A DNA stretch of 64,000 bases from Polytrichum commune (Eukaryota; Streptophyta; Polytrichopsida; Polytrichales; Polytrichaceae). Of this stretch, positions 20,456 to 57,221 are shown one piece after another. The stretch covers positions 27,034,001 through 27,098,000 of the forward strand of contig OX485804.1 of NCBI GenBank assembly GCA_950295325.1, read 5' to 3'. Position 1 is the first letter of the stretch. The number at the start of each line of letters is the position of its first letter. The position numbers and the translations under genes were made by a program. The notes under the pieces are model-generated. The model made no database searches and had not been told where the DNA came from. It worked only from the letters and a program-made list of their open reading frames with translations.

Positions 20456-22234
20456 TTATGATAACTTAGAGAGCTTCGCTTCAATGGGCATACGAATTTT
20501 AGTACCTTATCGCCTCTTCTAAATTTCAAGATGCAATTTACTTAACCTTCTTGACTGCCCTCTTAACAACAACAACAAAAAGCTGTGTGACATTTGCAAT
20601 GTAAGACATCGTCATAATGGCCATATCATAATGTAAAACTTACAAATCCAAGCTAAACGTGCATTGCGGGATGACTTGTTACCAAATTCAAAGCAACTTG
20701 GACTGAAAGCCACTTCAAAATCGAAGTACATGTATACCTAACGCACACTTCCATGTTGAGGTAAAGTCGGCGAACCCCCCCCCCCCCCCCCAAATTCACA
20801 TGGAAGGGTGCCAAAGTTTTTACCGGGAGAACTAGAATTGGTGACTAATACATTTCTAGGCAAAGGTTGAATGTTGAGGAGGAGTTGGTAATCTTTCTAA
20901 TTTGGATTTGGAAATTCAATTTTGGGTTGAGCATAAAATAAGATTTACAATTCCATCTTATAATTTGCGGACATGAAATTGCCATACCTTACACTACATA
21001 TAGTTCTATTCTATCTTGATGTTATAAAAATGTTAGTATTCCCACATTCCTGATGTTTCATACTTTGGAGTTATTACGATATGTTAAAACCTTTAATTTA
21101 TCTGCTCTTACAATATTTCAAATGAAAAATGGGACGGCCACAACATTCCAACTCACACAATTGACAACACATCAAACATGCTCTCTCATATGTTGGCCCT
21201 CCTACTCCATTAACATGGAAGTGCTTGTGCAAAGAAAATGTAGTGAAATCCTGCCCGACGATTCACTGGTGAAATTTCATTAAAAAAAATTTGTGTCTGT
21301 ATGGCGCCAATATGGCACATGGAAGTCTTTCGTTAACTTCAAGAATATATGACGAAGCATGTTTAGTTCCTAATTGTTCAACAGTAGCAAAATTCAAACC
21401 CAACTTTGTGATGTAGAGGCCAAGAGACTTTGAGTCCTATAGGTTATATATTGATTCTTTGTGAGCCACGTTGCGGCACATTTGCAACTAGAATTCCAAT
21501 CTTAAGAAAAGAAAGCACCTATTCTGGTACTAGAGCTTAATCATGAAACACCCAGGGTTGTATTTATCTTGCACACAACGCTTTGAAGGTGGAGTTTTTT
21601 TGTTAACACAAGTTTACCTTGAGCATGTGTGTGGGAGCTTATAGAAGTTTGCTAGCTTAGGGTTGAGTGAACCTCTACAGTTCATCATGCCAAGAGCTTG
21701 AGTGGTTGAGAGTCATCTTCATTTACAAGTCTGTGTTGGAAGTGTGCTTCCAACTTTGATTGAGCCATGCTAAATGTCCCTAATAGGTATACACTCACTT
21801 AACTATAGCAAGAGGCACCAAATCAACAAACCATTCAAAAACAAAAGGCCCTATCGGAGTTGCAAGTCTAACAACGCATGATAGATGGACAAACAAATGG
21901 TTTCAATTATAATTTTACATTAATACACACCGTGGGAATGAGACGGCTACTTTTGACACAAAATGTGCTACCCAAGGGCCATTTTGATGAACTTAGTGTA
22001 ATAAAATTTCGACCTTGAAAAAATGATTATAAGTAAATAATTATGAAGAGACATTTCACATTGTGAAGAGACATGGTCAATATGGATGCTCCTTTGTTGC
22101 ATATTAGATAATTCCTCTCATGTGAATAAACTAAGGATATTCATTGCTACTCCCAAAATGTTCAAGTAAGTACCTATCTTACATATTGGTTTGTGCTTTC
22201 TTGGGAATTTTAGAGTCCAAGTGAATCCATTATC
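20456..22234. other. No gene; AT-rich intergenic
   Basis: A poly-C run of 18 at 20776-20793 is the only notable feature. Short ORFs (such as 21053-21283) show no family resemblance. Confidence 0.4.
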
Positions 22235-22879
22235 ATGACTTCACAAAGGATGGATCCATTGATAGAGGTAGAACTGCGAAAGGATTTCTTAGAGAAGGTA
22301 GATGACATGTCACACGAGAATTTAAAACGCATTGTGAAAGCTTGTGTGTGGAACCTCCAAGAAGCCACAGAACTGGTAAAATGTGAGGAAGAGACAAGTG
22401 GTGGACACATTGATGATGAGAATTTGCGGGATGTTATTCAAGGGTTACTCGCACAACTCCAACAATATAGAAGCGAGCACTTGGGCTACACGGATGCAAT
22501 GATTAAATTGCAAAAACAAAACCAAGAGTGTATTGAGAGGTTGCATGCCGCCTCAAACATGTGTTGGGAAATTGATGTTTTACACAAGAAAGGTGATTTT
22601 GATCATGACATTGTTTTGTATTATAAAACCCTCACCGAAAGTCTTATGAAGACAATTCATGAACTACAAGAAAGCCTCAAAGCAAGAACACTACAATGGC
22701 AAGTCACCTTAAACTTATACCTAAAGGAGAAGTACGAAGGTGGACACAACTTAACAGCCTTGGAAACCATTGCAAAGGACAAGTATATAGAGGTATATAG
22801 AGAAATGGAGACAAAGAGAGAACGGGGGCGGGAGTGGAAAGAGGAATATGATTTGAGTGGATTAAGATATTTCAATTGA
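22235..22879 (+). CDS. Hypothetical protein, 214 aa, helical/coiled-coil
   Basis: An intact ATG-to-stop frame of 645 bp, by far the longest in this AT-rich region. I do not recognise the family. The protein is hydrophilic and rich in Glu, Lys and Leu. Residues about 65-105 and 135-165 have heptad-like spacing (LRDVIQGLLAQLQQYRSEH; YKTLTESLMKTIHELQESL), suggesting coiled coils. No signal peptide, membrane segment or metal-binding motif is visible. The C-terminus is basic-acidic (EMETKRERGREWKEEYDLSG). A second in-frame Met at codon 6 is an alternative start. AATAAA at about 22889, just after the stop, could serve for polyadenylation. Candidates are a lineage-specific gene or a protein left by a mobile element; nothing around it decides. 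Confidence 0.5.
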   Translation: MTSQRMDPLIEVELRKDFLEKVDDMSHENLKRIVKACVWNLQEATELVKCEEETSGGHIDDENLRDVIQGLLAQLQQYRSEHLGYTDAMIKLQKQNQECIERLHAASNMCWEIDVLHKKGDFDHDIVLYYKTLTESLMKTIHELQESLKARTLQWQVTLNLYLKEKYEGGHNLTALETIAKDKYIEVYREMETKRERGREWKEEYDLSGLRYFN

Positions 22880-26325: not shown

Positions 26326-27305
26326 GTGCGGGGAGATTTTTGAGCATAATTGGTTGAGATCCTGGTTTTTCCAAGTCCAACCGGTTACATGTTGTGATCT
26401 TTCGGTTTTTCTTTATTAATTTGAGGTATAGTGTATAGATTCCTCGACGATGATCGGCAACTTTCCTGAAGTCTTGAACTTCAACCAGTTGTCTCTCATA
26501 CTCTCAACCGGTTATGTCTCAAACTCTCAACCGGCTATGTCTCAAACTCTCAAACCGGTTACCTTTCAAACTCTCAACCAGTTACCTTTCAAACTCTCAA
26601 ACCGGTTATCTCTCAAACTCTCAAACCGGTTATCTCTCAAACTCTCAACCGGCTAAGTCTCAAACTCTCAAACCGGTTACCTTTCAAACTCTTAACCGGT
26701 TATCTCTCAAACTCAACCGGTTATCTCTTAAACTTAACCGGTTATCTCTTAAACTCTCAAACCAGTTATGTCTCAAACTCTCAACCGGCTATGTCGCAAA
26801 CTCTCAAACTGGTTACCTTTCAAACTCTTAACCGGTTATCTCTCAAACTCAACCGTTTATCTCTTAAACTTAACCGGTTATCTCTTAAACTCTCAAACCG
26901 GTTATGTCTCAAACTCTCAACCGGCTATGTCGCAAACTCTCAAACTGGTTACCTTTCAAACTCTTAACCGGTTATCTCTCAAACTCAACCGGTTATCTCT
27001 TAAACTCTCAAACTGGTTATGTCTCAAACTCTCAACCGGCTATGTCTCAAACTCTCAAACCGGTTACCTTTCAAACTCTTAACCGGTTATCTCTCAAAGT
27101 CTTAACCGGTTATCTCTCAAACTCAACCGGTTATGTCTCAAACGCTCAAACCGGTTATGTCTCAAACTCTCAAACCGGTTACCTTTCAAACTCTTAACCG
27201 GTCATCTCTCAACCTCTTCCGTTTATCTCGTACACTTAACTGGTTATCTCGTAAACTCACAACCAGTTCATGTGCAACTAGCGATCGGTTGTCCCCTGTT
27301 CACTG
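26326..27305 (+). repeat. CCGGTT-bearing dispersed repeat, family P (copy 5, expanded)
   Basis: Left part as in other copies (GGGGAGATTTTTGAGCATAA, TTCCAAGTCCAACCGGTTAC, TTTATTAATTTGAGG). The right part ends CAACTAGCGATCGGTTGTCC. Between them, where other copies hold two or three motifs, sits a minisatellite (next entry). Confidence 0.85.
26505..27262 (+). repeat. Minisatellite, ~34 units of 21-24 bp
   Basis: Unit consensus CTCTCAAACCGGTTATCTCTCAAA with variants (AACCGGCTATGTC, TTACCTTTC). Unit types recur in fixed order, giving a higher-order repeat: the same unit series starts 136 bp apart at 26768 and 26904, with a shortened third period after 27018. Because the unit is near 24 or 21 bp, long plus-strand frames stay open (26450-27197), but these are products of the repeat, not genes. 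Confidence 0.95.
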
Positions 27306-28667: not shown

Positions 28668-30190
28668 GAAGCCACACGAAAACGTATAATCTTCCATGAC
28701 CTGCAAGATTACAAACACATTTCCAGGACACATTTTCAATTATGCAGTGTTAAGTGCTCCTAGGCTCCTAGAGCTGATTTTTCACCTCATTCTACGACAG
28801 TTGCTTTGCTTCCTGTTTAATTTAGTCTTGCTCCAACCAACACAGATCCTATGGAACACTCCGACACAAATACACGTGACGGGATCCTAATTGGGAGGAA
28901 GAAACAAGAAACCTTTGGACTGATATCTTAGCTTAATGTGATATAGAAGTGATCAATGTCAGAAATCAGAAGTATAAACGAGAACCTGAAGCCAGATGAT
29001 CAGCACAGTCTTCCGTGATGGAGACTCATCACAAATATATTTCCAGCATGCACTTTCGATTACAGAGTAACTGCTCCGAGGCTCATAGAGCTGATTTTTC
29101 ACCTCACTATTGGCTTTGCCTCCTTGTTTATTTGTTATATCTTCCTCCAACCAACCCAGATCCAAATCAGAACACTCCAACACAAACGCAGCTGCCCTGA
29201 ACCTTGGCAGGAAGAAACGAGAAACCTTTGGATTAATAAGCTTAGGGTGATATAGCAGTGATCAATGGCAGAGAGTAAATGTGAGGACCTGAAGCCAAGA
29301 TGATGAATCACAATGTCCAGTGGCGGAGACTCCTCACAAATATATTTCCAGCATACACTTTCAATTACACAGATAGCTGCTCTGAGACTCATAGAGCTGG
29401 ATTTTCACCTCACCTCACTGTTGGGTTTGCCTCCTTATCTCTTTTTATCTTGCTCCAACCAACCCGGATTCAAAACGGAACACTCCGTTGGAAACACAGC
29501 TGACCTGAACCTTGGGAGGAATAAACTATAAACCTTTGGACTGATAAGCTTAGTGTGATATAAAAGTCATCAATGTCAGGAGTAAATATGAGAAACCTGA
29601 AGCCAGATGATCAGCACATTCTTACATGATGGAGACACATCACAAGTATATTTCAGCGAACACTTTCAATTACACAGTGTAACTGCAACAAGACTCTTAG
29701 AGTTGTTTTTTCCACCTCACCTCACTGTTTGATTTGCTTCCATTCTCATTTTATCTTGCTCCAACCAACCCAGATTCAAAATGGGGCACTCCACCGCAAA
29801 CACAGCTGACCTGAACCCTTGGGAGGAACAAAACTTTGGACTGAGTATGCAAGAGAGAGTAAATATGAGAACCTGAAGCCAGATAACCAAGCATAATCTT
29901 GCATGATTGGGCTCCTACTTTTCCACCTTTCTCCAACCAACACGGATCTAATGGAACACTAGTACTTGGAAAGAATAAGAAGCTTCAAACTGATATATTT
30001 TGAGAAATAGAAGTAATGAATTTCACCTGAAGCAGCTTCAGATTATGAAGCAACATAATCTTACACGACCGAGATCTATTTCCAGCCTAGATTCTCAATT
30101 ACGTATGCAGTGTAACTACTCCTACTAAGGCTCCTCCTCGGGAGCTCAGAGAGCGATGATGCTTTGCTTCTAAGAGCAATCGGGTCCCAG
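28668..30190. repeat. Tandem array, ~305-bp unit, about 5.5 copies
   Basis: Units start at about 28668, 28988, 29291, 29599, 29875 and (partial) 30029, marked by CCTGAAGCCAGATGATCAGC and, within each, CATAGAGCTGATTTTTCACC and TCCAACCAACCCAGATCC. The second to fourth units are most alike; the outer ones are diverged or truncated. The array lies immediately 3' of the Kir gene. A minus-strand phrase VIES-x-CWKYIC-x-ESP is kept open in two or three units, but no conserved start, stop or splice pattern supports coding. Confidence 0.9.
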
Positions 30191-30704: not shown

Positions 30705-32231
30705 TTAGTTCGGAGAGAGCGCCAATTCGAGTGCCTGTGAAGCGCAAGCGATGAGAGGACCCCGATTGGCATCTGCGGCCGACAGGGGTTGCTGTAGGGT
30801 TTGGTGCACGCGGCTAGCGAGCTCCACGAGCTGCTTCTTGAGGGCTTGCGAGCGAGCTTCAGCTGCCGCAAGCTTCTGTTCGTAGGCCTGGTCACTGCAC
30901 TCTGACGTCATGAACGAGAACGCATGGTCCCTGCCAATCTCCGGCATACTCTGGGAGCTTTTGGGACAGATATCCTCCTCCTCCTGCTCCTCAAGTAGCA
31001 CTGAGCTTTCTGAGGCTGTTCGAAGAAGACTGCGAGGTTTGATGTCGTAATGATGATGATGATGATGGAGGTTGTTATTGTTGCGGAGGTGCGTTGGGGT
31101 GAGAAAATCCCACATTCTGACCTCGCCTTCCTCATTTCCGACGTCCGATTTGGGCACGAAATTGTACCTGCCAGCGTGAGAGATCGGTGGCAATGTGGCT
31201 GACGAATCGGGACGGGTCAGGAGGCTGGTGGAGACCGGTAATAGCGAGTCGAATTTCGCAAAGTCAACGCACCGCCGTCCATTAGCGGACCGGAACACCA
31301 TGGTCTCGTGTCGGAAGTCTTTCCGCATGTCTTTGGGTAAGTAGGAGTGGCGGGCTTGGAGTTTACAAGAAGTGGAAGCGTCCACTCCTTCCAACAACAC
31401 CAGAATCTCCATGTCGGCGTCCTCGAGCTCCTCGATGCTCAGACCGAACAGGGGGCTTGTGCTTGTGATGGGATGCTTCACGGAGCAGGGGAGGCCAAGG
31501 AACACCTGATTCCCGCCAATTACAGGGAGTGAAGTGAAATGGAAGACAGTTTCGTCGTCTCTCCCTCCCAGCATGTTGTTGAACCCTATGAGGAGCCGCA
31601 CATTGGCCTCAATAATCTGGTGCTTCCGTATATTGGCTATGCGGAGGGAGATCACGGGAACCCCATCCTCATCGTGCATGGTGACATATCGGCTGAAGAT
31701 CACCGTCTGTGCCCTCCGTGCTGGCCTTGAGAATCTCACATAAAACACTCCCAGCAGCGAGTACATCACCAGGAGGCTGGCCAGCGATTGCACCACCACC
31801 ATGATGTTCGTGAGCGTGCAGCTCGGATCTGGGGTCAGGTCACCGCCGTACCCGATCGTCATCGAGGTTTGCACGCTGAACCAGAGTGCGTGCTTGTACT
31901 CCATCACCCCCGGAATGCAATTGTTGTTGTATGCGTCGTAGTAGTAGGGCACCGCGAACCCTCCGAACAGCAGGAGGTATGTTATGCATAGGATTCCTAT
32001 GAACCGCATGTTAGGCATGTTCACTAAGGTGTGGAATAAATCCCCCCAGTACAGAAACGTCTTCGGTAACCCCCGCGTCTCCACATTCAACCGCCCTTTC
32101 TCGTCCACCAGAGGTAGCTTTTGTAATCTGCGCTGCCGGACCAAGAACGGCGCTGTCATTGTTGCCATCCTTCCTAACCCCTCCCCCCCGCCTCCCCACG
32201 GCCCACTCGCAAACCTCCCTAATGCCTTCAT
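30705..32231 (-). CDS. Kir-type (inward-rectifier family) potassium channel, single exon
   Basis: An intronless frame of 508 codons from the ATG at 32231; an upstream in-frame TTG is not a credible start. The architecture is that of eukaryotic Kir channels: N-terminal cytosolic segment, slide-helix region near 58-72, TM1 about 76-97, pore helix and filter TIGYGGD with GYG at 127-129, TM2 about 140-165, then the immunoglobulin-like cytoplasmic domain (about 175-345). Hallmarks include FSRPARRAQTVIFS after TM2 (basic residues R166, R169, R172, R173 where animal channels bind PIP2), LRIANIRKHQIIEANVRL and HPITSTSPLFGLSIEELE. It should form a tetrameric K+ channel; which membrane is unknown. The tail after about 345 is unlike animal Kir: an Asn/His run (NNNNLHHHHHHYD), an acidic run and a terminal Ala/Leu/Lys coiled coil (about 450-490). 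I know of no flowering-plant member. Confidence 0.93.
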   Translation of the reverse strand: MKALGRFASGPWGGGGEGLGRMATMTAPFLVRQRRLQKLPLVDEKGRLNVETRGLPKTFLYWGDLFHTLVNMPNMRFIGILCITYLLLFGGFAVPYYYDAYNNNCIPGVMEYKHALWFSVQTSMTIGYGGDLTPDPSCTLTNIMVVVQSLASLLVMYSLLGVFYVRFSRPARRAQTVIFSRYVTMHDEDGVPVISLRIANIRKHQIIEANVRLLIGFNNMLGGRDDETVFHFTSLPVIGGNQVFLGLPCSVKHPITSTSPLFGLSIEELEDADMEILVLLEGVDASTSCKLQARHSYLPKDMRKDFRHETMVFRSANGRRCVDFAKFDSLLPVSTSLLTRPDSSATLPPISHAGRYNFVPKSDVGNEEGEVRMWDFLTPTHLRNNNNLHHHHHHYDIKPRSLLRTASESSVLLEEQEEEDICPKSSQSMPEIGRDHAFSFMTSECSDQAYEQKLAAAEARSQALKKQLVELASRVHQTLQQPLSAADANRGPLIACASQALELALSPN

Positions 32232-32248
32232 CACCAACCTTCAAACAG

Positions 32249-33170
32249 CCTTCAATCAATAAGCGCTGACCAACTAATTAATTCCTATCCAGAAAACAGC
32301 CTCCCCTATACATACGAGCTCGTGTGCATTCCCTTCCCATACATCTTTCTCCTATTAGTCACATGCAAAGCTGCCAAGGCCTGGAGCTCTTCGAATTCTC
32401 GAAACCCTACCTCTAACTACCTCTCTGTCTCCTCCCCTCTCCCAAGCTCGCCAGCTCCGCCTCACCAATCCTCAACTGCCTTCGATCAATAAGCGCTACT
32501 AATTAATTCCTCTCGATCAAAAAACAACCTCCCCCCTACATAAGACCTGGCACGCATTCCCTTCCCATACTCCTTGCTCCTATTCTTTGCATGCAAACAT
32601 GCATACTGTGAACTCTGTCCAAGCCTGGACCTCTTTGAATTCCCCAAACCCTACCTCTCTGTCTCGGTGTGTTTCTCTCCCTCCCCCTCCCCGAAGCTCC
32701 CAACCTCAGCCTCCCTCGGCCTTCGATCAATAAGCGCTACTAATTAATTCCTCTCGAACAAACATCTTCCCCATACGTAAAAGCTCGTAAGCAGTTCTTT
32801 CCCTTACATCTTTCTCCTACTCTTCACATGCAAAGCTGCATACTCTGCCAAGGCCTGGGGGCTCTTTGAATTCTCCAAAACTTTCCTCGTCCTACATCTC
32901 TGTCTGTCTGTCTGTCTCCCTCCCAAAGCTCCCAACCTCAGCCTCCCCAATCCTCCAACAGCCTTCCATCAAGCGTGACTAGTTAATTCCTCTCAATCAA
33001 AACCGACCTCCCCCCCCCCCCAATACATACAAACTCGTAGAATTCCCTTCCCAAACACCTTTCTCCTATTCCTCACACGCAAAGCTGCACGCTGTGAACT
33101 CCGCCAGAGCCTCGGGCTCTTTGAATCCCCCAAACCCTACCCGAAGGTCCCAACCTCAGCTTCCCTCCTC
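32249..33170. repeat. Tandem array, ~235-bp unit, 4 copies, upstream of Kir ATG
   Basis: Units start at 32251, 32481, 32722 and about 32964, marked by TTCGATCAATAAGCGCTACT, then AATTAATTCCTCTC, CATTCCCTTCCCATAC, CACATGCAAAGCTGC and AACCCTACCTCTC. The first unit begins about 20 bp 5' of the channel's ATG, so the array occupies the gene's leader and core promoter. The repeats are CT-rich on the plus strand. No TATA position can be fixed. Confidence 0.9.
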
Positions 33171-33847: not shown

Positions 33848-34087
33848 CCCCTTGTCTTGCTCTTAAATCGCTGCTCAAAGTCCAGTCCCTCTCCTGCTGC
33901 CAGGCAGCTCCTTCCTCATGCATAATTCACCGTCGATCGGAGCCCTGCCGCTGCTGCGCTGCTTGTGAGAAAATCATCGCAAAGGTCATGATCGTCACAA
34001 AACTGAGGTAAGTGCATCATTGAGGTTTTTTATTTGGGCAACCAAGGCATCCGACGGAGGCTCCCGAATCCCGCCGCTTTGGCAGGC

Positions 34088-36700
34088 GACTTTCCAAGGC
34101 TACTCTTGTCGTCGCCATGATCGCGGCCATCGTCCTCCTTCGCGGTTTTCTTTCTTCTCTACATTTCTTTCCCCCTTGTGGCAGACAGGACGCACGAGTA
34201 ACATATGTAGCCCGCCCTAAAGTGGTATGTGATCGCCCATGTTTTCTAGTGAGCATGTAAGCACATATTCAACTCTCAAATATACACACATTTATGTAAG
34301 AAAGCCAATTAAGGACATCTATGAGCACCACTCCAAGAAACTCATTAGAATATTCACTTTCATTTCAAACATAGCAAGACGAGCCCACATGTTCCTCGTT
34401 GGGATGTGTTCATGTGTTCATGTAAGTTTTCCCCTTGGATTGTTGAACCCCTACATATGTTGGAATGTTGGAAGTGTCTACTTTAAGCACACTTAAGCTA
34501 AAAAAAACCGAAAACGGTGAATGACCACGACTTTCTAAAGCTACTCTTGTCGTCTCCAAGATCACGGCCATCATCCTACTTTTCGGTTTCTTTTCTCCTC
34601 TATCTTTCTTTCCCCCTTATGGCGGACAAGACGCAAGAGTAACATATGTAGCCCTAAAGTAGTATGTGCTCTTCAATGTTTTCTAGTGAGCATATAATAC
34701 ATATTCACATCTTAAATATACACACATTTATATATACACATTTATATACACACATTTATGCAATTAAGGACATCTATGAGCACCACTCCAAGAAACTCAT
34801 TAGAATATTCACTTTCATTTCAAACATAGCAAGACGAGCCCACATGTTCCTCGTTGGGATGTGTTCATGTGTTCATGTAAGTTTTCTCCTTGGAATGTTG
34901 AACCCCTACATATGTTGGAATGTTGGAAGTGTCTACTTTAAGCACACTTAAGCTTAAAAAAACCAAAAACGGTGAATGACCATGACTTTCTAAAGCTACT
35001 CTTGTCGTCTCCAAGATCGCGGCCATCGTCCTACTTTTCGGTTTCTTTTCTCCTCTATCTTTCTTTCCCCCTTATGGCAGACAAGACGCAAGAGTAACAT
35101 ATGTAGCCCTAAAGTGGTATGTGCTCTTCAATGTTTTCTAGTGAGCATATAATTACATATTCACATCTGAAATATACACACATTTATGCAAGAAAGCCAA
35201 TTAAGGACATCTATGAGCACCACTTCAAGAAACTCATTAGAATATTCACTTTCATTTCAAACATAGCAAGACGAGCCCACATGTTCCTCGTTGGGATGTG
35301 ATGATGTGTTCATGTAAGTTTTATCCTTGGATTGTTGAACCCCTACATATGTTGGAATGTTGGAAGTGTCTACTTCACAGGGAGGTCACTCCATTGTAAT
35401 GTTGAACAACCACGTGCGAACACTTTACATATAAGAATTCCCACTTTTTACATAAAGCATCACCAAAATGGGTCAAACTTTTATCAAATGTTTTTCATGA
35501 GTAGATATACACGGTACCTATTACATAGTGAGAAATGGTAACTAAATTGGATGATTTGTTTTTTTATAAACCATACCGTCTCTCACTAGAATGACGTAGA
35601 ATTGAACTAAAAACATTACTACCAAAATGAAGACGACTAAAAATTTCAAAAAAAAACATACAAAAGATACTATCAATGGTTATTTATATGTAGGAAAAAT
35701 ATCATAACTTTGAAAATTATCTATGGCATGTAATATAAGGGTAGCAAACTTTGCTCACACGTGGTGTTCAACTTGACAATGGAGTGACCACCCCGTGGTC
35801 TACTTTAGGCAAACTTAAGCTAGAAAAACCGAAAACGGTGAATGACCACGACTTTCTAAAGCTACTCTTGTCGTCTCCATGATCGCGGCCGTCATCCTCC
35901 TTTTTGGTTTCTTTTCTTCTCTATATTTCTTTCCCCCTTGTGGCAGATAGGACGCATGAGTAACATATGTAGCCCTAAAGTGGTATGAGATCTTCAATGT
36001 TTTCTAGTGAGCATATAAGTACATATTCAAGTCCGAAATATACACACATTAATGAAAGAAAACCAATTAAGGACATCTATGAGCACCACTTCAAGAAACT
36101 CATTAGAATATTCACTTTCATTTCAAACATAGCAATACCAGCTCACATGTTCCTCGTTGGGATTTGCTGATGTGTTCATGTAAGTTTCTTCCTTGGATTG
36201 TCAAACCCCTACATATGTTGGAAATGTCCACTTTAGGCACACTTAAGCTACAAAAACCGAAAACGGTGAATGACCATGACTTTCTAAGGCTACTCTTGTC
36301 GTCTCCATGATCACAGCCATCATCCTGCTTTTCGGTTTCTTTCTTCTCTATCTTTCTTTCCCCTTTGCGGCAGACATGACGCACGAGTAACATATGTAGT
36401 CCAACAGTGGTATGTGATTTTCAATGTTTAAGTACATATTCAAGTCTGAAATATATACATATATGAAAGAAACCCAATTAAGAAAGTCTATAAGCACCAC
36501 TTCAAATACGAAACTCATTAGAATGTTCACTTTTGTTTCAAACATAGCAAGACCAACTCTCATGTTCCTCATTGGGATGTGCCGATGTGTTTCATGTCAA
36601 ATTTTCCTTGGATTGTCTAACCCCTACATGTGTTGGAATGTTGGAAGTATCCACATTACGCACACTTAAGCTACAAAAACCAAAACCAGTGAATGACCAC
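34088..36700. repeat. Tandem array, ~430-455-bp unit, 5 copies
   Basis: Unit starts at 34088, 34529, 34984, 35850 and 36278, each with GACTTTCTAAAGCTACTCTT, GTCGTCTCCATGATCGCGG, GGCAGACAGGACGCA, AACATATGTAGCCC, ATTAAGGACATCTATGAGCA and CCCCTACATATGTTGGAATG. Units 1-3 are most alike; units 4-5 are older. Unit 3 is split by a hAT-type MITE. Plus-strand frames of 60-95 codons recur per unit (KPIKDIYEHH...), but they vary in start and end and are not supported as genes. Confidence 0.92.
35376..35797. mobile_element. hAT-type MITE with 8-bp target duplication
   Basis: 422 bp inside unit 3 of the tandem array. The target duplication GTCTACTT is perfect at 35368-35375 and 35798-35805, and the other array units show this site once and empty. 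Ends: CACAGGGAGGTCACTCCATT and, inverted from the right, CACGGGGTGGTCACTCCATT, with further inverted similarity to about 40 bp. An 8-bp duplication and C-A-rich short ends are typical of hAT. No transposase is encoded. Confidence 0.93.
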
Positions 36701-45977: not shown

Positions 45978-46486
45978 TATCTCACACCAAGCCCAAAGGG
46001 AGTCGATGCACCAAGTCAATTTCAACATGGTTAATTAGATGTTCATTCCAATTTTATGGCCAAGTCACTATGGTTATGTGAACACATTCGCCTTGATATC
46101 CAACATTGCAAGTTAGTGAAGTCACTTATTGATGGTGATGATGGAAAGAGGTTGCCTATTGTAAGGAATAGTATAAAATAAATAAAAGGAACATTAGTGT
46201 CTTTTTACACCGACGTGCGATGCCGTTCACCGGCTCTTATCCCATATTAGTGAGCATTGTGGTCCCATGTGGGATAAAATGGGAACATTCCAAATTAAAA
46301 AGAGAGGCATTTCATCATGCGTGTGATGGTGTTCTTTGGTGCCAAGGCTTGTGGAAGTTGTACTTGCAATGTGATAAATGAACATAGTTTAGTAGACAAA
46401 TATGGTAAAGGTACCTTATTTGGGCATTTAAAGCAAACACCCACACATTGTATGCATGTCAACATAAAATCAATTTTATGTCAATG

Positions 46487-46790
46487 TTATGAGGTGAGTA
46501 ATTCCTCAACATAGATAGGTAAGGTATCAATGACCACAAAAGACAATTTTTGTATCCACTCGTAACTTCCTATGAAAATTTGAAGATGAGAAGCATACAA
46601 ATCTATGATGATTACATACTTAGGTGCCTCAAAATCAATCACCCTCAGTATTCTACAATATGTAAGTGGTTTCACAAGCTTGTTGGCTTGTTGAACCTAT
46701 AAGTGAGTCATATGCTTTAAAACTCCCTTGTGTTGGCAATGGGTACATTTATAAGGAATGGAATATAGATGGTGACCTCAAGTTATATTA
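46487..46790 (-). pseudogene. Possible mobile-element protein remnant, stop-interrupted
   Basis: The minus strand reads YKCTHCQHKGVLKHMTHL, then a stop, then an open stretch with RVIDFEAPKYVIIIDLYASH. The C-x2-C start and the IDF-x5-K-[FY]-V core echo the frame at 14556-15041. Class unknown. Confidence 0.2.
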
Positions 46791-47057
46791 CATGTCTTGT
46801 ATATAACCATCTAAAACCCATTAAAAGTTAAAGTGACATTGTTCAAAGATGTTGTGTTGTATTATTCCAACATTGAAAGCCATAATATATGCATATTCAG
46901 GTGCATCAATTTTGAAACAAGCAAGTCATTTATATTCTTGATGGCTAAAGTAGAAGCGTTGATAATGGACCCTTTAAGCACTTGAGACCTTCAACATGTG
47001 CAAACAAAAATCTAAAAGTGCATAATATTCCATTTTCTATTGAAGATTCTTGATGAG

Positions 47058-47082
47058 TCTCTCTCTCTCTCTCTCTCTCTCT
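47058..47082. repeat. (CT)n microsatellite
   Basis: An uninterrupted run of about 12 units. Confidence 0.9.
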
Positions 47083-47479
47083 TTCTCCCCACCATTGTTA
47101 TAAAGTCAAGCAATGCCTAACATAAAGGAGTAAACATAAACAAGATTTTTATGTAAATGCGCATGAAATAAGATCTATATATACTTAAACCCAACAATGA
47201 ACCTAAAATCAATACTATGTATCACATCCTACATTTAGAAACTTCAAATGTATGATATTTTGACCAATGTAAGTTGATGAAAATGAACATACATAATCAC
47301 CATATGCTTTTGATTCCCCTAGTGCTAACGATAACCATCTCAAGTTGGTTACCCCCCCTATTTGAAGAAGCTTATTCGATAGTGACAAACTTGAATTGGC
47401 CATTTGCCCATTTGCCAATGCTCAAAATGATGGCCAAAAACAATTGTTTAGTGAACAAATTTGCATATGAAGTGGAGTA

Positions 47480-47985
47480 CAATAATCTCCCGCTTAAGTG
47501 CACACTTTGAACTAGAGCCATTGGTGTGCACTTAGTTGGTAGGTGCGTACTTTACTCATATCGCTTTCTAGACCCTCGTATTCGATGAATCGGAATGGAA
47601 AACAGATAAACATGAGGCAACCCGCTTGACCAATATCCAACCTATTGAGACATTGGTTGAATTTGAAAGTGCTACCGACGTCAAAGGCTTTGAAGCTCTA
47701 CATAGCATTGTCCTCGACATTGACGACCAATTGCTTTGCTCTGATGTTGAAACAAAAGTTGGACAAATGTATGATGAACTGCGACGATCGTTTGAGACAT
47801 TTCAACGAAAAGTTAACAAACTAACATTGATTGTCAAGCGAGAAAAATTGCATGTATTCGCCGCAAATGACTTTGCATGACATGTTCAAACAATAAAGTA
47901 TGAACCTTGATTTTTGTCAAAAAAAATTGCGCACTTAACCGGGATGCGTACTTAAACGGGTGTGTACTTAAGCGGGAGATTACTG
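47480..47985 (+). mobile_element. pogo/Tigger-like (Tc1/mariner) remnant, TA-flanked
   Basis: 506 bp. The right end read inward is CAGTAATCTCCCGCTTAAGT, the left end CAATAATCTCCCGCTTAAGT, both followed by ACACAC-type sequence; TA at 47478-47479 and 47986-47987. The CAGT...CCCGCTTAAG end is the pogo/Tigger style. An open frame at 47626-47880 without ATG (VLDIDDQLLCSDVETKVGQM, then a helical KVNKLTLIVKRE segment) sits where the C-terminal end of a transposase would be. I infer, but cannot show, that it is a transposase remnant. Confidence 0.75.
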
Positions 47986-47987
47986 TA

Positions 47988-49311
47988 TTACATGATTGTA
48001 AAGTATAATCAGTAGCTTGGACTCAGCCATCATCACACCACTGGTATGAGGGTTTTTTAAACTACAAATGTCTTAAACAAAACAAAAAACAAACAAACTG
48101 GTCTTTTCGACATGGCCCATTTGAAACATGGTAATTTAAGACCTATCAGAAACACCACATTCTATGTCAAGACAGTTGATATATTATTGATACTACGTAT
48201 TTTGAATAGGTTTGAAAGTTAGTGTGACAATCAGTAGATCATATTGCTTTTTAGGAACACTAATTGAAGGATCACACAGTATTTGAAAAAACTGTCACCA
48301 GTCACCTCTACTTGTATTCTACAACCCACATTCTTCTTCAGATTCTTCTCTGGGGACTTGTTCAGCATTGCTAGGATGCATAGATTGCAATCGTACAAAA
48401 AACTTGCACCCAAAGTATAATGTGTACACCTTGGCTCCATTTGAACCAAAACTTATACTGAAACAGAGTGTCATATTGCAATTGTACTAAAAAACTACAC
48501 TTCCACATATTACAAGTGTGTGAATCTGATGTCATTGTTCATTGTCCAATCCAACATGCAGACATGTCACAACCCACTCTTGCTAATTGCAGCACCACAT
48601 ACAACCGATTTGACAAAATTGTCATTGATGTTGGTGTGAACCTTACGGAGTTGAATTTAACTGGTACAAGTCAAGTTTGTCAACCCAAATTAATAAATTC
48701 AAGCATTTCAGAATTCAAAGCTTTCCGATGGATAGCAGATATGACCAGGCAGCAGATAAAACCAATTCGATAGGGACAGCCCAATTCACTGACAAATCAA
48801 TCAAAATAGGCATCCAAGTATTTCTGGGAGGTGCCAATCACAATCAACAATTGTAATTGACGGCAACTGTTAAACTCCCACACCATCCTAATTGATCAAG
48901 ATGTGGACGCTCTTCATGTCAACTAGAGAGTAACAAATCGACATGATGACCTCCTTAAAGAAGTTCGAAGTGAAACATGGTTACAGCCAAAGAGGATGGA
49001 TCAATATGAAAAACCGAAATTCGGCTCACAGAATCTTTCAATGTGAATGTAACAAGATCAACCCACATGAGGTTCAAAGATTTAAAAGAATTACTGACAA
49101 AATCTACCCTAATCCTGATGAAAAAAACTAACAGATACATTACCCCTTGGCGAGACTAGCCCCCATCTAGCCATACATAGCACCCTCAAAAGACTTTACA
49201 CTTAATTTCACATCAGAATCCAAAATGTAGGAGGATGTAGTACTAATGTTACAGAGTGGTGAAATAACAAATGCTCTAACTTTCATCACCCCACCTCTTG
49301 CTCTTTTATCT
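47988..49311. other. 3' flank of the ORP gene; no gene recognised
   Basis: AT-rich, with unrelated short frames at 48468-48773 and 48943-49131. No repeat boundary was seen. Confidence 0.4.
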
Positions 49312-52300
49312 TCATTCATTAACACCATTTTCTTCTACGGTATCCGGGCCAAAAATATCAGGACAATTCTCCCATCTCCCTTTATCCCGTGCTTCCCAGT
49401 AGCCCCCTGTATACTCAAAAGTGTCTTTGCCTTTCCCTTTCCGGAACCATCGTGGTTGCCACCCTGTCTCCTGAAGGGTCCGTGCCTGATACCACCCCGC
49501 AAAATCCAACATCAATCAGTGAATCACAAGCAAAACTTACCAACTTCTTGAAGAGCTTTGTACGAGACTCAAAAGTCATTATCCACAAGCATATCAGTTA
49601 TCCAATATATTCTGTAATGTCCACACTGAAGGTTAACAAGGGAGAGAATATATGCTCAAATAAACATATTGACACATATAATGATAACCATTCATAACAA
49701 ACTGTACCATGGAAACCACTAACACAAAGTAGGGGAAAAATATGCACAGAAGGGATACAACTACATAGTGTGAAAGACAACAAAATCCCTTACAACATAC
49801 ACCCTCGTCTAGACAAGTATAATCCTTTGACCAGAAAAGACAAAAAGAGATTTCTGCTCCACTCACCCGTCGCTGCTTCTGTTCAAGTCTTAACTTCTCT
49901 GAGTTAGCTGCATCAAATTCGCCACTCTCTAAGTGCCTTTGATCTGGTCTCAATCTTGAATCTGTAGGTGGCAACTTCTCCTGTACAGCAACAATCCCAG
50001 AATAAATAAAACTCAAGGCCTAGTTTATGTGGAAGGGGGTGTAAAAAACCTATTTATAACAGAAACCCATTGGGTTTAAACAAAACAGTTCTGAATTTTT
50101 TCATTCGGCGAGAAGTGGCAGGGTTTTGGAAAGGTAGAAACCTTGAGCCCAGGTGTTAACTCATTCAAAGTTATGGAAAATGCTGTTAGACCATAACGAG
50201 TCATCCTCTCTGGTGGATCAGCACGCCGCCACAACTGAACAGCCTCAGACATGGGGTCGTAGCTCTTGTGCTTCTCGGTAACATCTCCATTCACATAATA
50301 CATTGCTTCATCCCACTTTCCAAAAAGTGTCGCAATTTTCACTCCACTTTTATCATGCACAAAACCTTGAACCTGCTTGCATAAGATACATAATAAGAAT
50401 GCAATTTTCAGCTCATTTAACAATGTTCACGCACCGATAGAATATATTAGCAATATACTAGTTGTCAGTAACAACTCCCTTACCAAGTAACAAACTCCTA
50501 AAGACTCTGAAACCACTGGCATGTTATGTCATGGCATGCAAAGAACTAGAACAAAGCATACCACTTATTTCCTCCTGAGGACGGGGAAAGTACCTGATGA
50601 GGATTTCGATCGATTATTGACTGCTCTTTGAATTTAAGCTTGCAAGAAAGCTCCCTGTTGCCCTGAATGCGCATTGTACCATAATGGTCCACATACAGCT
50701 TGCCTAAGATCAAATTGTAGATTGAGGTTGTCACCTGCACATTTTGTCAACTCATAAGCCAGCCAGAACAAAAGCTCCTAAGCATAAAACACTTCACCAC
50801 ATCCCTTACAAAAGACATAGCTTACACTCCACCATAAACATAGCTTCTTTTTCCATATGATTTGCGCATTCCTTGTAGAACTACGCATAGATGCACCAAA
50901 TGCAAACAAGCAGCTGCAGAAAATAGGTACCTTTGTCCACTGAAACACCTCTCCATCATCAAACTTGAGAGTGAGGGTCCCAACGGGGTCCACTTGAATA
51001 GAGCGACCCCAGAACTTGCTTTTTAAGTTACTGTCCCCCCAGAACTTCCAACCCCTCCCCTCACAATGGCATGCTACAATCATGGGATGATGACTAACCT
51101 GCATAACAAGTACCACAATCATTACTGACCAGCTTGGCTCAATTCACATTTAGGACATGCACAATAATACGAAAGGTGCACTAAAAGTCAATTTGAACAT
51201 TGGAAGAATGCCTCATGCTCTTCATCTCCAACAAAAATCTTGATATTGAAATCTGCTCAATAATTTGCCCTTCAAATATGCAAACTGAGTTATATTGAGA
51301 AATTCCTTTTGGTACATGCCTTTTCAGAAAAGAATCTCAAACCCTTATCAGGGTAATCAGCCTCGTAGGTCTCTCCTAGCAGAGGATTGAAGGGTTTACA
51401 AGTGCGGCCTTCTGTAGATGAGTATCCTGACACTGCAAACGCTCCAACACAAAGAAGCCTCATAAGGCTATTTCCCTGCACAAGACATCTAAATATGAAT
51501 GCAGAACTAATTGGGAATAGAGGGGAAGAAATGTACTCCTCCCAATGAAAGCAGCCAAATCAAAAGGACTAAACACATTCCATACTCCTGAGACAACTAG
51601 ACACACAAAGGCACGCATTTCCAATACCATAATCCAAAATAGAGACCGCACACATATTTTTATTACATCACTTATAAACCCTAACCTACAACTAAGATAA
51701 CTTCAAAAATGATAAAATAATTTATACCAACTTATATCCACTGGTTCTAACTTAGGTGTCAGGCACTTGTCAACAAGAGTTACATGTTCACAAAGATTCC
51801 AAATGCACATAGAACTCACCCTTTTCCCATATTCTGCAGCTCTGTCCAGAAGATAAGAATATTCCACATCCTCAAAGCACCGCTGCAAAGATGATATGGG
51901 CTCATTGAAATACACGGGCAAGCAAACCTTTGTGAGGTCCTTACCAATGTTGTCCTTTATCATAGACCACAGACTGACACTCTTTTCCTTCTCTTTTGGA
52001 TCGGGCAAACATTTCCGGCGCTGCACCTTAGGGTAGTCAAACCCCACAGAATCCATGTGCACTTCACCCTCATGACTATGAGTTGGGGATTCTGAGGCAT
52101 GTCGTGCACTAGCTGAACTCTTCAGAGTTTCTTTTGCTTCAAAGAAAACCTCGTCCTCATCGTCAGTGTCCACATCCACACCACCCTTGTCATTGTCATC
52201 ATCTGACTCAGTATCACTTCCTCCTGGTGCACGAAGGACAAAACATGTATAAGACATTCATGAACGAAGTAACCCAACAACAAGAGAACAGAATCCTATC

Positions 52301-55300
52301 AACGAAAGACCACAAAGCATAGATGCAGCACAAAGCTTATCTCAGACACTTAACTTGCAACCAATCTAGTCCGCTCTGGAGTACCCTCCAAACAGAATAT
52401 GGTACAAAAGGCATAAATTTGAGCAAAGGCCAAGCTTCCTTTTGCAATCACAATCTGATCCATTGAAATACAAAAGCATATTACTCCAAAATAAATATCA
52501 TCAGGTTTAGTCCACACTTATAAGTGAATAATACTCAATCTGTACCAAGGCAGCAGTTCACCACAGCTTGCTTCCAATATTATATACTGATAAAAAAGAA
52601 CTGAATCAAACAAAAAGAAGGCCAGAAATAAGATTTAGAAAGAGATTATATACCATAGTACTTTTTGAGACCATGAATCCCACCTCCACCCGCTTGACTT
52701 TGCATTTCATCCACAACTGTTGTCTCCAACTCAACTTTCTCAGCCTGTGATGAAAAAATCCATATGAAATAAGAAAGGAGAACCTAGGTTGAGGGCACCC
52801 ACCATTAGACTGTTTGATGTCTCCAATCTTCCAAGTAAAGCATTCATTGAAGGTGTGCTTTGGAGGTGGTCATGAATAATATTGAGGGAATATATGAAGT
52901 GCATCAGATGAAATCCTCAGATCCATAATGGTCATAGCTCTCAAAATAAGTGATGGAAAAATCATCCAAATTTCTAAGCCACAGTCCAATATCTGAGCAA
53001 AATGTCCTTTTCCCAAGAGTCAATAATAAAAGTGCAAGCCTCGCTCACTTACAGGTTCAATTTTGCCACTGCCCCACTTACACCAATTGCAATAATTTAC
53101 ATCAGCAACAATCACTGCCAGTACCTCAAGCAAGCGTAATTTTTCAATCAAGGACATGCGACGATTGTCCATATCTTCCAATTGCTCCTTCACCTCCGTG
53201 AACTCTGCCAACATGATCTCCTCACATTCTTTCACCTGATCTTCTTTCAATCCAAACTCAGTAAGTTTTGCCCTCAGCTTATCTGTTGATATTTTAATCT
53301 CCTCTTTAGGAGGCACCAACCCAAGCAGCAATGAACATCGGGGAAACAAGTCTTTGGCAACTTGTAGAACATCCAACCAAGCAGCCCTGTCTGAACTTGA
53401 CTCTGCTCGAAGATGCAAAGTTTTTGTTCCACTGTATATATAGAACCTTCTCTCATCAGACTGACTGGTGCGGAGGGTCGACACCTGCACAGAGATTGAG
53501 AGTGGAGTCATTAGTTGATACTCAGGAATTCAATAGAAGCCAGCACTACCACTTCAATGATTCCTGTCTGGGCTCCACAACAATCTCAGACGAAATACCA
53601 TTAGTGGCCAAAGCAATTTTTCCACACATAAATAGACTGCATAGGCAGTAACGTAAATCCAGAAGACCTTGTCCGCAACCCAGTTTAAATCACAACCGAA
53701 GTCACACAAAATGAGGTTTCCTATACCAAATGGCTGCTACCCTGTGACAAATGAGAATAATCTACATGCCTAGAATCTGGTGAAACAACTATTTCAACAA
53801 TAAACATAAAATGCCTTCCAGTAGACTCTGGATTTAGCTTTACATAGCAATCAATCTGGAAAGACTTGTCGAAAGAAATACAAGGAGAGCACTATGAACC
53901 TCGGACAAATTGGCACTTAGAAACCCTACCCTAAGTCCTAAGTTCATCAACTACCATAAACTGCCTTGAGCCACGACTAGAGCTATTTGAATCCAGAAGA
54001 GCATTCAATACCAATCTATTTCTTCCCAACAAAATCAGGCCCAGAATCCAGTAGATGCTGTAGGAGCACCCACCTAAATTCACAATTCCAGGTTAAGGAG
54101 ATACAATGTACATACACCCAAAAATATATGTGAAACTACCAACGTCAGCAGAGGCGAATTGAAATATCAGTCCCTCGTATCTAATATGGCGTTAACCAGA
54201 TAGCTTTGCAAGACTTCCAGATTGATACAAAGGATCTCCAACCACCCTATAGTTCCCACTCCATTCGAGCTCGATCTTTAAATTCCACAAGCTCACAAAA
54301 GCAACCAAATTATGGTTTTATAATAACCACTAAAGCCCTCTATTCATGTGCATTCAGCAATACCTGGCCCCTTACTGAAGTCCCAAATATCGATGCACCC
54401 AACTTTGCAGACGACGTAGAAAAAGCACAATCGCCACCACACATAAAAATACTCTAAGAATTACAGAGATTGAGGATTCTCTTGCCAACAATCCAGCTCT
54501 GTCCAGATATAGAAAGGGACTTTAGCCCACCCCTTAAGCACCCTCTCTCGCGGCACAATTGCTGAAATTCATATCTCAAATTTCTCAGGCAAACTGAAAA
54601 AAAAGGTATAATCGCCACCACACATGGATAACCCAAAAATTTAGGATTCTCTTCCCAACAATCCAACGCTGTCCAGAAGCTACGGAGGATTTAGCCAATG
54701 CCTCAAGTACCCCCTCTCACAATAGAATCGCTCAACAACAGCTTTGAGATTCAAATTCCTCCCACAACGTGTGCCAAGAAATACCCATAGCCATTTGTAC
54801 TCTCCCTCTCTCTCTCTCGTGTGTGTGTGTGTGTAAGCTGTATATGTACCTTGAGTTGCACAGTACCAGAAGGTTTGCTCAAGGATTTGTCATCGCCATG
54901 GTGGATGTGATGCCCGTGATGGCGCTGCTTCTTCATCAACCTCTTGGTCTCCTCGCCAATCGTCCGAAACCCTTGAAACCGGCCATCATTGATGGTGACC
55001 TTCTCCGGCCCATGCACCTTGTAATAGGAGAGCACGCCGTCCGTGAGCGTGACCCAGCGGGGTCGCCACCCCTTGCCGAAATTCACCCACTTGTACAGAA
55101 TCCCCGCCACATTGTTGGTGGCCCCTTGGGGCGTGGCGTTCCCAGACTTGTCCACCACCTGGAACAGCTCCCCTGAGAAATTGGCCGCCATGCGCATGCC
55201 CCCCTGGATGCCCCCCTCCGGCGTCACCGTGAACACCTTCCCGGATGGAGACCGCGTCGAGTCCACCATCGCATCCATATTCATCCCTACCACATCACCT

Positions 55301-55620
55301 CCTCCCGCACCCTCCCTGTTCTTGTTCAAAATCTTCGTCGCCAGCGGTGGCAACGGCGCCCCTCCCCCTCCCCCCGTCATAGATCGGGCTGAGTTCGCTG
55401 CACTCCCCCCTCCTCCTCCATTACTCATCATCGCACCCGCAGCGTTCGTTGCACTGCTCGCCTTCCCGGATCGCACTGCCTCCTTCTCCCTCCCATTACT
55501 CCCCGCCCCCTCCATCTTACTACTAAACTCCCGCTGCTCCTCGTCCGCCACCGCGTCCCCCTCCACGGGATCGGGCGAGATACAACACAGCACCCGGCCG
55601 CTTCTTCTACTCTCATGCAT
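49312..55620 (-). CDS. Oxysterol-binding-protein-related protein (PH + ORD), 10 exons
   Basis: Exons (minus): 55620-54850, 53484-53125, 52744-52654, 52223-51820, 51475-51320, 51098-50931, 50734-50594, 50372-50142, 49980-49867, 49485-49312; 2610 nt, 869 aa, frame kept throughout. Plant ORP1/2-type lipid exchanger expected to move sterol or PI4P at ER contact sites. The start [16 protein letters not shown] resembles the MH...CCIS N-terminus of plant members. Gly/Ala-rich linker 60-110; PH domain about 172-306, split by the long first intron; coiled coil about 325-385; acidic stretch and FFAT-like VFFEAKE (433-439); ORD about 465-869 with [31 protein letters not shown] and the signature VSHHPM (595-600, His597-598 contact phosphoinositide in the family), and the C-terminal GGYWEAR. 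Intron 5 has a GC donor. Of ordinary length or slightly longer than relatives (about 800). Confidence 0.95.
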
Positions 55621-57221
55621 TCCCTCCCCTCCCCACCTTCACCTCCACCTACTCCACCTCCACCTCCACTCTCCACTCTTCCCCCCACCTCTCTCCCCTC
55701 TCCCTGCGTCACTCCCTCCCCGTACGCCGACGATATCGTTGATGCTGGCCTCCTCCTCCTCCGCCCTACGCATCCTCCTCATTCCGCATCCCTCCCTCGC
55801 GCCTCACACCCCCTCCTCTCCCCTCCTGCTCCTCCCGTCACCCCCGCCTCGCCTCGCCATCCCCGATCCAAACTCAAAACCCTAATCTGCCCCTCCTCCA
55901 AATGCCCCTCTCTCTCTCACTCACTCACACACACACACACTCTCCTCCTGCAAACGGGCGGCAGTGAGTGATGAAGGCGGTTGAGAATGAGGAATCCCCC
56001 CAGCGTGCTCAGGGAGGAGATTGAATTGAGAAAGAGTCAGGGCAAAGAGCGCCCGGCGCATCGATCAGGGGAGGGGTGTGCCTGCCTGCTTGCTTCCTGT
56101 AGTTTTTGTTGCCGCCGCCTCGCTCAGTCCTTTCGTGCGATCTGTGGTGGGGGCAGGCGGGCGAGCGAGCGAGGGAAGAGAGAAGAGAGCGGGACGACCT
56201 GCGCTTCCCCTCCCCTTCCCCTTCCCTTCCCTTCCCTGGCGTGGCGTGGCGTTGCGCTGCCTGCGTGGTTCCGGTGCTGTGTGGGCAACAAGAAGCTTCC
56301 ACCTCCTGCCAAGAACTTTCTATGTATTCATCTACCAATGTGTTGTGGTATATTGTAGGGGCGACTCTACTTCTTAGTACTACTATGCTACTTCCCTTTC
56401 TACTCTCCAATCCCATTGCTTGCTTGCTTGCTTGCTTGCTTGCTCGCTTCATGACGAGTCTGGCATGCACCGCGCGGTTTTTTACGGTTGGGTTTTTCAT
56501 AGTGTTTTTTTTTTAAATCGATCATCTAAGGTCGAGCAAAATATGGTTTTAGGCAGTTTTATTGCATATGAGTTGAGATTATAGGGCAGGGGGCCCACTT
56601 TCCGTCAATGATGGTGTCGATTGTCAAGTGTTGAGTGTTGGAATAAAACCATGGTCTTATTCACGGAAATTGGGTTTTTGGCATTAAAACCAGAAACCCA
56701 ATGTATCGGCCCGAAAAAATTGGGTTTTCCCCACCCTTGACTTCATGAAGGTAAGGATGGCAGGTCTTAAATGCATGGTTTTCTTAATCGGGCCCCTCCA
56801 TATGATTCAGTATGCGGTTCGGTGAGGATCAAAGCGCCCACGACGTCATATGGACCCGTGTTTAATTCAAAGAGATCGGGCTACGTGTCGATATGTTAAT
56901 GACTGCTCAGCATTCAATAGTGAACACACGTCGGGGAGGATCTATGTATCTGGTTGAGGGAGCATGCATCTTCGATAACCATAACTAAAATCATGGGAGG
57001 TGTGGTTTTTGCATTTGTAGATTGGTTGATGCAACAAGAACTTTGGTTGTGTGAACCTGATCACTAGAAGTTGGAGAACATGAAAAACAAACGAAATAGC
57101 ATCCACATGTTTTATTAGGTCTCCTCTTCTTCTTCTTTGATGAGTCATGCTTGTGTTGATGCACAGAATAGTAGGTAATAGGATGGGGTTTGACGGAGGG
57201 GGGGGGATCATCACATCAACT
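55621..57221. other. 5' flank of the ORP gene; CT/GA- and GC-rich, then AT-rich
   Basis: CACACA run at 55926-55941 and CTC-rich DNA to about 55920 make a GA/GT-rich leader on the gene strand. A (TTGC)n run lies at about 56419-56443. Long plus-strand frames (55043-55971, 55981-56516) are Pro/Ser-rich products of composition and lie opposite or beside ORP exon 1. From 56520 on nothing is recognised. Confidence 0.5.

Follow-up and report, generated by a model that had tools for sequence, protein, structure and literature searches.

Potassium channel physiology in plants, as framed for Arabidopsis, centers on Shaker and TPK channels, and the Arabidopsis channels called Kir-like are counted among the TPKs, with KCO3 described as a shortened TPK (PMC3694395). 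Inward rectifiers (Kir) are most familiar as animal channels, and proteins that resemble them have been reported from moss. One paper cites a 2004 report for Physcomitrella proteins that are induced by cold and osmotic stress and are similar to mammalian inward rectifiers (PMC1952061). MCamb1 and MCamb2 (Takezawa and Minami 2004) are presented as calmodulin-binding moss membrane proteins inducible by ABA, cold, and osmotic stress (PMC1952061, PMC4532166, PMC8655846), the last two sources being reviews that list them under the same citation as the first. Like the gene described below, the MCamb proteins are from moss, and they are cited as resembling mammalian inward rectifiers. An inventory of Physcomitrella, Selaginella, and flowering plants contains neither "Kir" nor "inward rectif" (0 occurrences of each; PMC3410407). 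The matches listed in the open literature, outside which most subscription journals lie, included no work on a true Kir from a plant.

The window, a 64,000-nucleotide stretch of Polytrichum commune DNA (C2:27034001-27098000 in a 407.8-Mb assembly of 64 contigs, C2 itself measuring 70.3 Mb), contains a gene that, at a probability of roughly 0.7, codes for a genuine K+ channel subunit of the Kir family and of eukaryotic type, present once in a green plant (Table 1). The original prediction had set a Kir in a land plant against flowering plants, which it took to lack true Kirs. A true Kir it is, but its novelty is limited, as Physcomitrella proteins similar to mammalian inward rectifiers had already been cited (PMC1952061). 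Plant genes of this kind are real and little studied; they were reported earlier by similarity and are apparently missing from one inventory or more.

Table 1. Features of the Kir locus in window coordinates, with residues counted from the ATG.
Feature	Position	Strand	Remarks
Kir channel gene	30705..32231	-	508 codons plus stop, coding frame without intron
Pfam IRK: slide helix, TM1, pore loop, TM2	31722..32108	-	residues 42-170
TM1	31944..32012	-	about residues 74-96; hydropathy
Cys105	31917..31919	-	22 residues before filter G; spacing as in 6/6 animal Kir
Selectivity filter TIGYGGD	31839..31859	-	residues 125-131; sequence, alignment
Cys138	31818..31820	-	11 residues after filter G; 10 in animals
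TM2	31740..31823	-	about residues 137-164; Met156 at the Kir2.1 Asp172 position
Tether R166-S180	31692..31736	-	insert A174-Q175-T176; basic R166, R169, R172, R173
Pfam IRK_C cytoplasmic domain	31218..31703	-	E208, E281 align with Kir2.1 E224, E299
C-terminal tail	30708..31211	-	residues 341-508; no Pfam match
Basic amphipathic helix in tail	30783..30860	-	residues 458-483; hydrophobic moment

The gene runs on the minus strand from an ATG at 32231 to a stop codon ending at 30705, in a single unbroken frame. Because one frame covers the whole Kir region, an intron is absent from that region, and because the frame opens, stop to stop, at 32240, upstream extension is impossible without splicing; the true start codon may instead be an in-frame ATG at residue 22 or 25. 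GC at third codon positions amounts to 0.72 for the core and 0.62 for the tail. The coordinates first proposed for the gene were exact, with the minus strand now added, and its description as intact and, within the coding frame, intronless is borne out, as are the two membrane segments (hydrophobic stretches at about residues 72-98 and 137-168), the Kir motifs, and the TIGYGGD filter, which conforms to the K+ channel pattern T-[IV]-G-[YF]-G.

Assignment to the Kir family follows from searches of domain profiles and of PDB sequences. In a Pfam search, both Kir domains scored far above their cut-offs, with 56.5 bits against 22.7 for IRK (E = 3.7e-15) and 84.7 bits against 22.5 for IRK_C (E = 7.6e-24). 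The sole match in an NCBIfam scan fell far under its cut-off. A phmmer search of PDB sequences placed Kir6.2 first at 9.7e-37, aligned over about 310 residues (32-342, in a numbering that begins two codons before the ATG), followed by Kir2.2, Kir6.1, Kir2.1, Kir3.2, and KirBac3.1 (best 4.5e-29). Homology across some 300 residues excludes a chance frame. A shortened two-pore channel of the TPK/KCO3 type that merely resembles a Kir would have a precedent in Arabidopsis KCO3, which arose by such truncation and likewise has two TM segments and one pore (PMC3694395), and the genome holds three close pairs of Ion_trans_2 domains that resemble TPKs. The Polytrichum protein differs from KCO3, however, by its true, full-length IRK_C domain, and its Ion_trans_2 score of 19.1 bits lies under the cut-off of 22.5. 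The IRK_C match refutes a TPK-derived pseudo-Kir, and this explanation retains next to no probability. The claim of a true Kir with a full cytoplasmic domain agrees with these results, and the accompanying view that "Kir-like" channels derive from TPKs agrees, for Arabidopsis KCO3, with the published account (PMC3694395).

Profile searches of the whole assembly returned a single locus above the cut-off for IRK and a single one for IRK_C, both being the Kir gene, and a protein search of the assembly with the Kir protein matched only itself. The lone other IRK match, on contig C5 (E = 0.35), lies below the cut-off in a frame without a filter and was rejected as a second copy. The gene is therefore apparently single-copy, in a profile search that scores the best candidates only, exon by exon, and that a diverged, intron-split copy could escape. 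Ion_trans_2 gave 13 matches in the assembly, and the three closely spaced pairs among them suggest ordinary TPK channels elsewhere in the genome. When one chosen frame at each of two TPK-like loci (L092 and L093) was rescanned with Pfam, no channel domain was found, so the reading of these loci as TPKs is drawn solely from the Ion_trans_2 pairs.

The best solved-structure matches being animal Kirs, a recent transfer from an animal, or contamination with animal DNA, has to be considered. Identity to four animal Kirs is merely 27%-29%, however, and the long turret of the animal channels is missing. The gene also sits inside a 70.3-Mb contig that bears, at C2:30015869 and about 3 Mb from the window, an open-frame light-harvesting gene (E = 2.4e-37), which places the Kir gene on a plant chromosome, as had been assumed. 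Contamination is largely refuted by the low identity and the plant contig context, and an animal source as a whole is very improbable.

Other contigs document the host. A search for the chlorophyll a/b-binding family returned 58 matches in the assembly. Contig C8 (146.6 kb) is very likely the plastid genome, in view of its open rpoA frame and of two PsaA/PsaB-family frames, both intact. Its PsaA matches PDB entry 8htu best (1723.9 bits), then 6l35 (1703.6), 9lut (1698.1), and 7wfd (1651.1); the first two are taken here to be from the moss Physcomitrium and the last from Arabidopsis. Together with the light-harvesting gene on C2, these matches mark the host as a green plant, probably a moss. 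Family matches fell on the large contigs C1, C2, and C4-C7; were C3 of the same kind, a set of seven chromosomes plus a plastid rpoA would fit Polytrichaceae. The open rpoA (119582-119917; L095) gives a hint at the moss lineage, the Physcomitrella plastid genome, unlike C8, presumably being without rpoA. Fragments resembling psaA/psaB but containing stops lie in large contigs at C4:47707642 and C5:337267 (L090, L091) and are likely plastid DNA insertions. In addition, a large tandem light-harvesting array occupies about 95 kb at C5:1751760-1846160, where fourteen chlorophyll-binding genes cluster, all scoring equally against the family.

For comparison with prokaryotic channels, at least 591 bacterial stretches were matched; 142 of them passed confirmation, from which the best 80 were kept. 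Exclusion of one (L039, 127 residues) left 79 bacterial rows; in five others (L011, L018, L027, L072, and L086) the reading is broken short of the match end and the readable part was used, and L030 has no readable filter motif, which leaves 78 rows for the cysteine count. The core alignment comprised the plant Kir, four animal Kirs, KirBac3.1, and the 79 bacterial rows. Kir3.2 and Kir7.1 were later added to give six animal rows, and for the careful trees 22 close relatives were removed, so that 57 bacterial rows and KirBac3.1 remained.

Two characters identify the channel as eukaryotic in type. The first is a three-residue tether insert, AQT, present in the plant protein and in all six animal Kirs (Kir6.2, Kir2.1, Kir2.2, Kir3.2, Kir4.1, and Kir7.1) and in none of the 79 bacterial rows from the best 80 of 142; KirBac3.1 has a gap at this position, as do 57 of 57 bacterial rows, from the same best 80 of 142, in the alignment with six animals. 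The second is a pair of cysteines flanking the filter, at -22 and +11 from a filter glycine in the plant and at -22 and +10 in 6/6 animals. In animal Kir channels these cysteines form a disulfide, and Cys138 of the plant protein is likely the disulfide partner of Cys105. The exact pair is found in 0/78 bacterial rows (from the best 80 of 142), among which 18 have a single cysteine at -18 to -26, two have one at +5 to +14, and one (L045) has a loosely spaced version of the pair. Animal Kirs further share with the plant protein both Kir domains, a mostly basic tether, and the acidic residues seen in Kir2.1. The eukaryotic type claimed in the original prediction is in line with the distribution of the insert and the cysteine pair.

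The trees point the same way. With the tether insert columns excluded and the cysteine columns included, the best unrooted trees join the plant to the animal Kirs and set them apart from the 58 bacterial rows with support of 97/99 (four animals) and 96/97 (six animals), the plant branch being very long (1.86 to 2.27) in a setting where long branches tend to meet. Descent from a cyanobacterium, either the plastid ancestor or a symbiont, would run against this grouping and would require that the insert and the cysteine pair, with its matching spacing, were gained independently, although neither occurs in the bacterial rows counted above. Yet an AU test with the plant forced to join 26 of the 29 cyanobacterial rows did not reject that placement (p = 0.25 and 0.298); forcing the 26 rows together costs 2.69 log units by itself (p = 0.389). 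In a tree without animals the plant falls nearest the cyanobacteria, a placement without support. KirBac and cyanobacterial Kirs resemble the plant protein in their two-TM Kir architecture, short turret, and 29%-33% identity (best six), and the plant, as bacteria do, lacks both the long animal turret and a 4-5-residue cytoplasmic insert; they differ from it in having neither the tether insert nor the exact cysteine pair (rows from the best 80 of 142). Twenty bacterial rows outscore Kir6.2 against the plant protein (top row 149.5 bits; Kir6.2 128.6 bits, rank 21 of 84), and the five best are cyanobacterial, in a comparison in which the bacterial rows, the best 80 of 142, were chosen by similarity to the plant Kir. 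Gln121 is also the commonest bacterial residue at its position (44/79 rows from the best 80 of 142), though 32 of the 79 carry the animal Glu. One scan of viral contigs found no relative, phages gave no match, and nine plasmid records matched (seven from Synechocystis, two from Caballeronia), each at less than 30% identity. On balance, a cyanobacterial origin is unlikely, and a eukaryotic origin is favored by these sequence comparisons but not proven.

If the gene was not transferred, the eukaryotic Kir characters would predate the animal-plant split. Some land plants may keep an ancient eukaryotic Kir that inventories of plant K+ channels have overlooked. It might be an evolutionary intermediate, since an animal-type tether and filter cysteines stand alongside a short, bacteria-like turret, and it might act as a calmodulin-tuned stress channel unlike the channels of flowering plants. 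This wider proposal is tentative, with chances somewhat below even.

The genuine, eukaryotic-type Kir remains the preferred reading, and a site-by-site alignment with Kir2.1 gives some indication of how such a channel might behave. E208 and E281 occupy the positions of E224 and E299, which presumably form the cytoplasmic polyamine ring of Kir2.1. The TM2 rectification site, where a strong, Kir2-like rectifier has an acidic residue (D172), is Met156 in the plant, so strong rectification is not expected. In the tether, K182, K185, K188, and R189 correspond to R166, R169, R172, and R173, and K187 to Ala171; lipid binding by this basic segment is plausible. Beyond the methionine, the plant protein departs from animal Kirs in having PNM in place of the slide-helix RWR (W81 being Asn74), Q121/D131 in place of the outer E138-R148 pair, and a 168-residue tail without a family. 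From these residues a lipid-dependent, weakly rectifying K+ channel would be predicted.

The altered sites can also be taken as signs that the protein has kept the Kir fold but lost conduction, or that it serves solely as a calmodulin- or lipid-binding scaffold: W81 and E138/R148, usually conserved, have become N and Q/D, and the long tail carries an amphipathic helix. The filter and the acidic ring (E208, E281), however, are unaltered, and loss of conduction is improbable. In a conducting Kir, four subunits would assemble one K+ pore, anionic lipids on the basic tether (R166, R169, R172, R173) would promote opening, and polyamines or Mg2+ at the acidic ring would give inward rectification, expected to be weak because the strong TM2 site is a methionine. 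A true Kir would give a plant group known for stress tolerance a route for K+ that has no voltage sensor and is controlled by lipids and polyamines.

The most speculative step of this scheme, modeled on the Physcomitrella MCamb reports, is that calmodulin at the tail helix might tune the channel in osmotic or cold stress. No Pfam family matches the 168-codon tail, whose frame is open; 38 of 20,000 shuffles of its letters were open as well. The helix at 458-483 is a candidate calmodulin-binding or coiled-coil segment. The 1.5 kb upstream of the gene contain no ABRE (shuffled mean 0.27), one DRE (1.37 in shuffles), and two ACGT cores (10.3 in shuffles), so the promoter lends no support to induction by ABA or cold.

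Several repeats surround the gene. Four imperfect units spaced 228-249 bases lie directly upstream of the start codon (32290..33167), where the promoter or 5' UTR would be, followed by diverged 428-455-base tandem repeats in two blocks (34087-36700). Downstream of the gene, a 306-base tandem repeat is present in about 3.6 copies (28711-29832), and a 23-base minisatellite (unit AACTCTCAACCGGTTATCTCTCA) shows a higher-order period of 136 bases (26477-27268). Rfam (gathering cut-off) and tRNA scans of the window returned 0 and 0 matches. Translated in six frames, 20.7-30.7 kb and 33-43 kb held no Pfam domain, and 9-13 kb held none either. A 221-residue stop-to-stop frame on the plus strand (22214-22879), likewise without a Pfam domain, appears helix-rich by eye. 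At 46001-55999 on the minus strand, the only strand covered by that Pfam search, PH and oxysterol-binding domains are spread across three frames, and this gene is an intron-split nuclear gene for a predicted ORP-like lipid-transfer protein.
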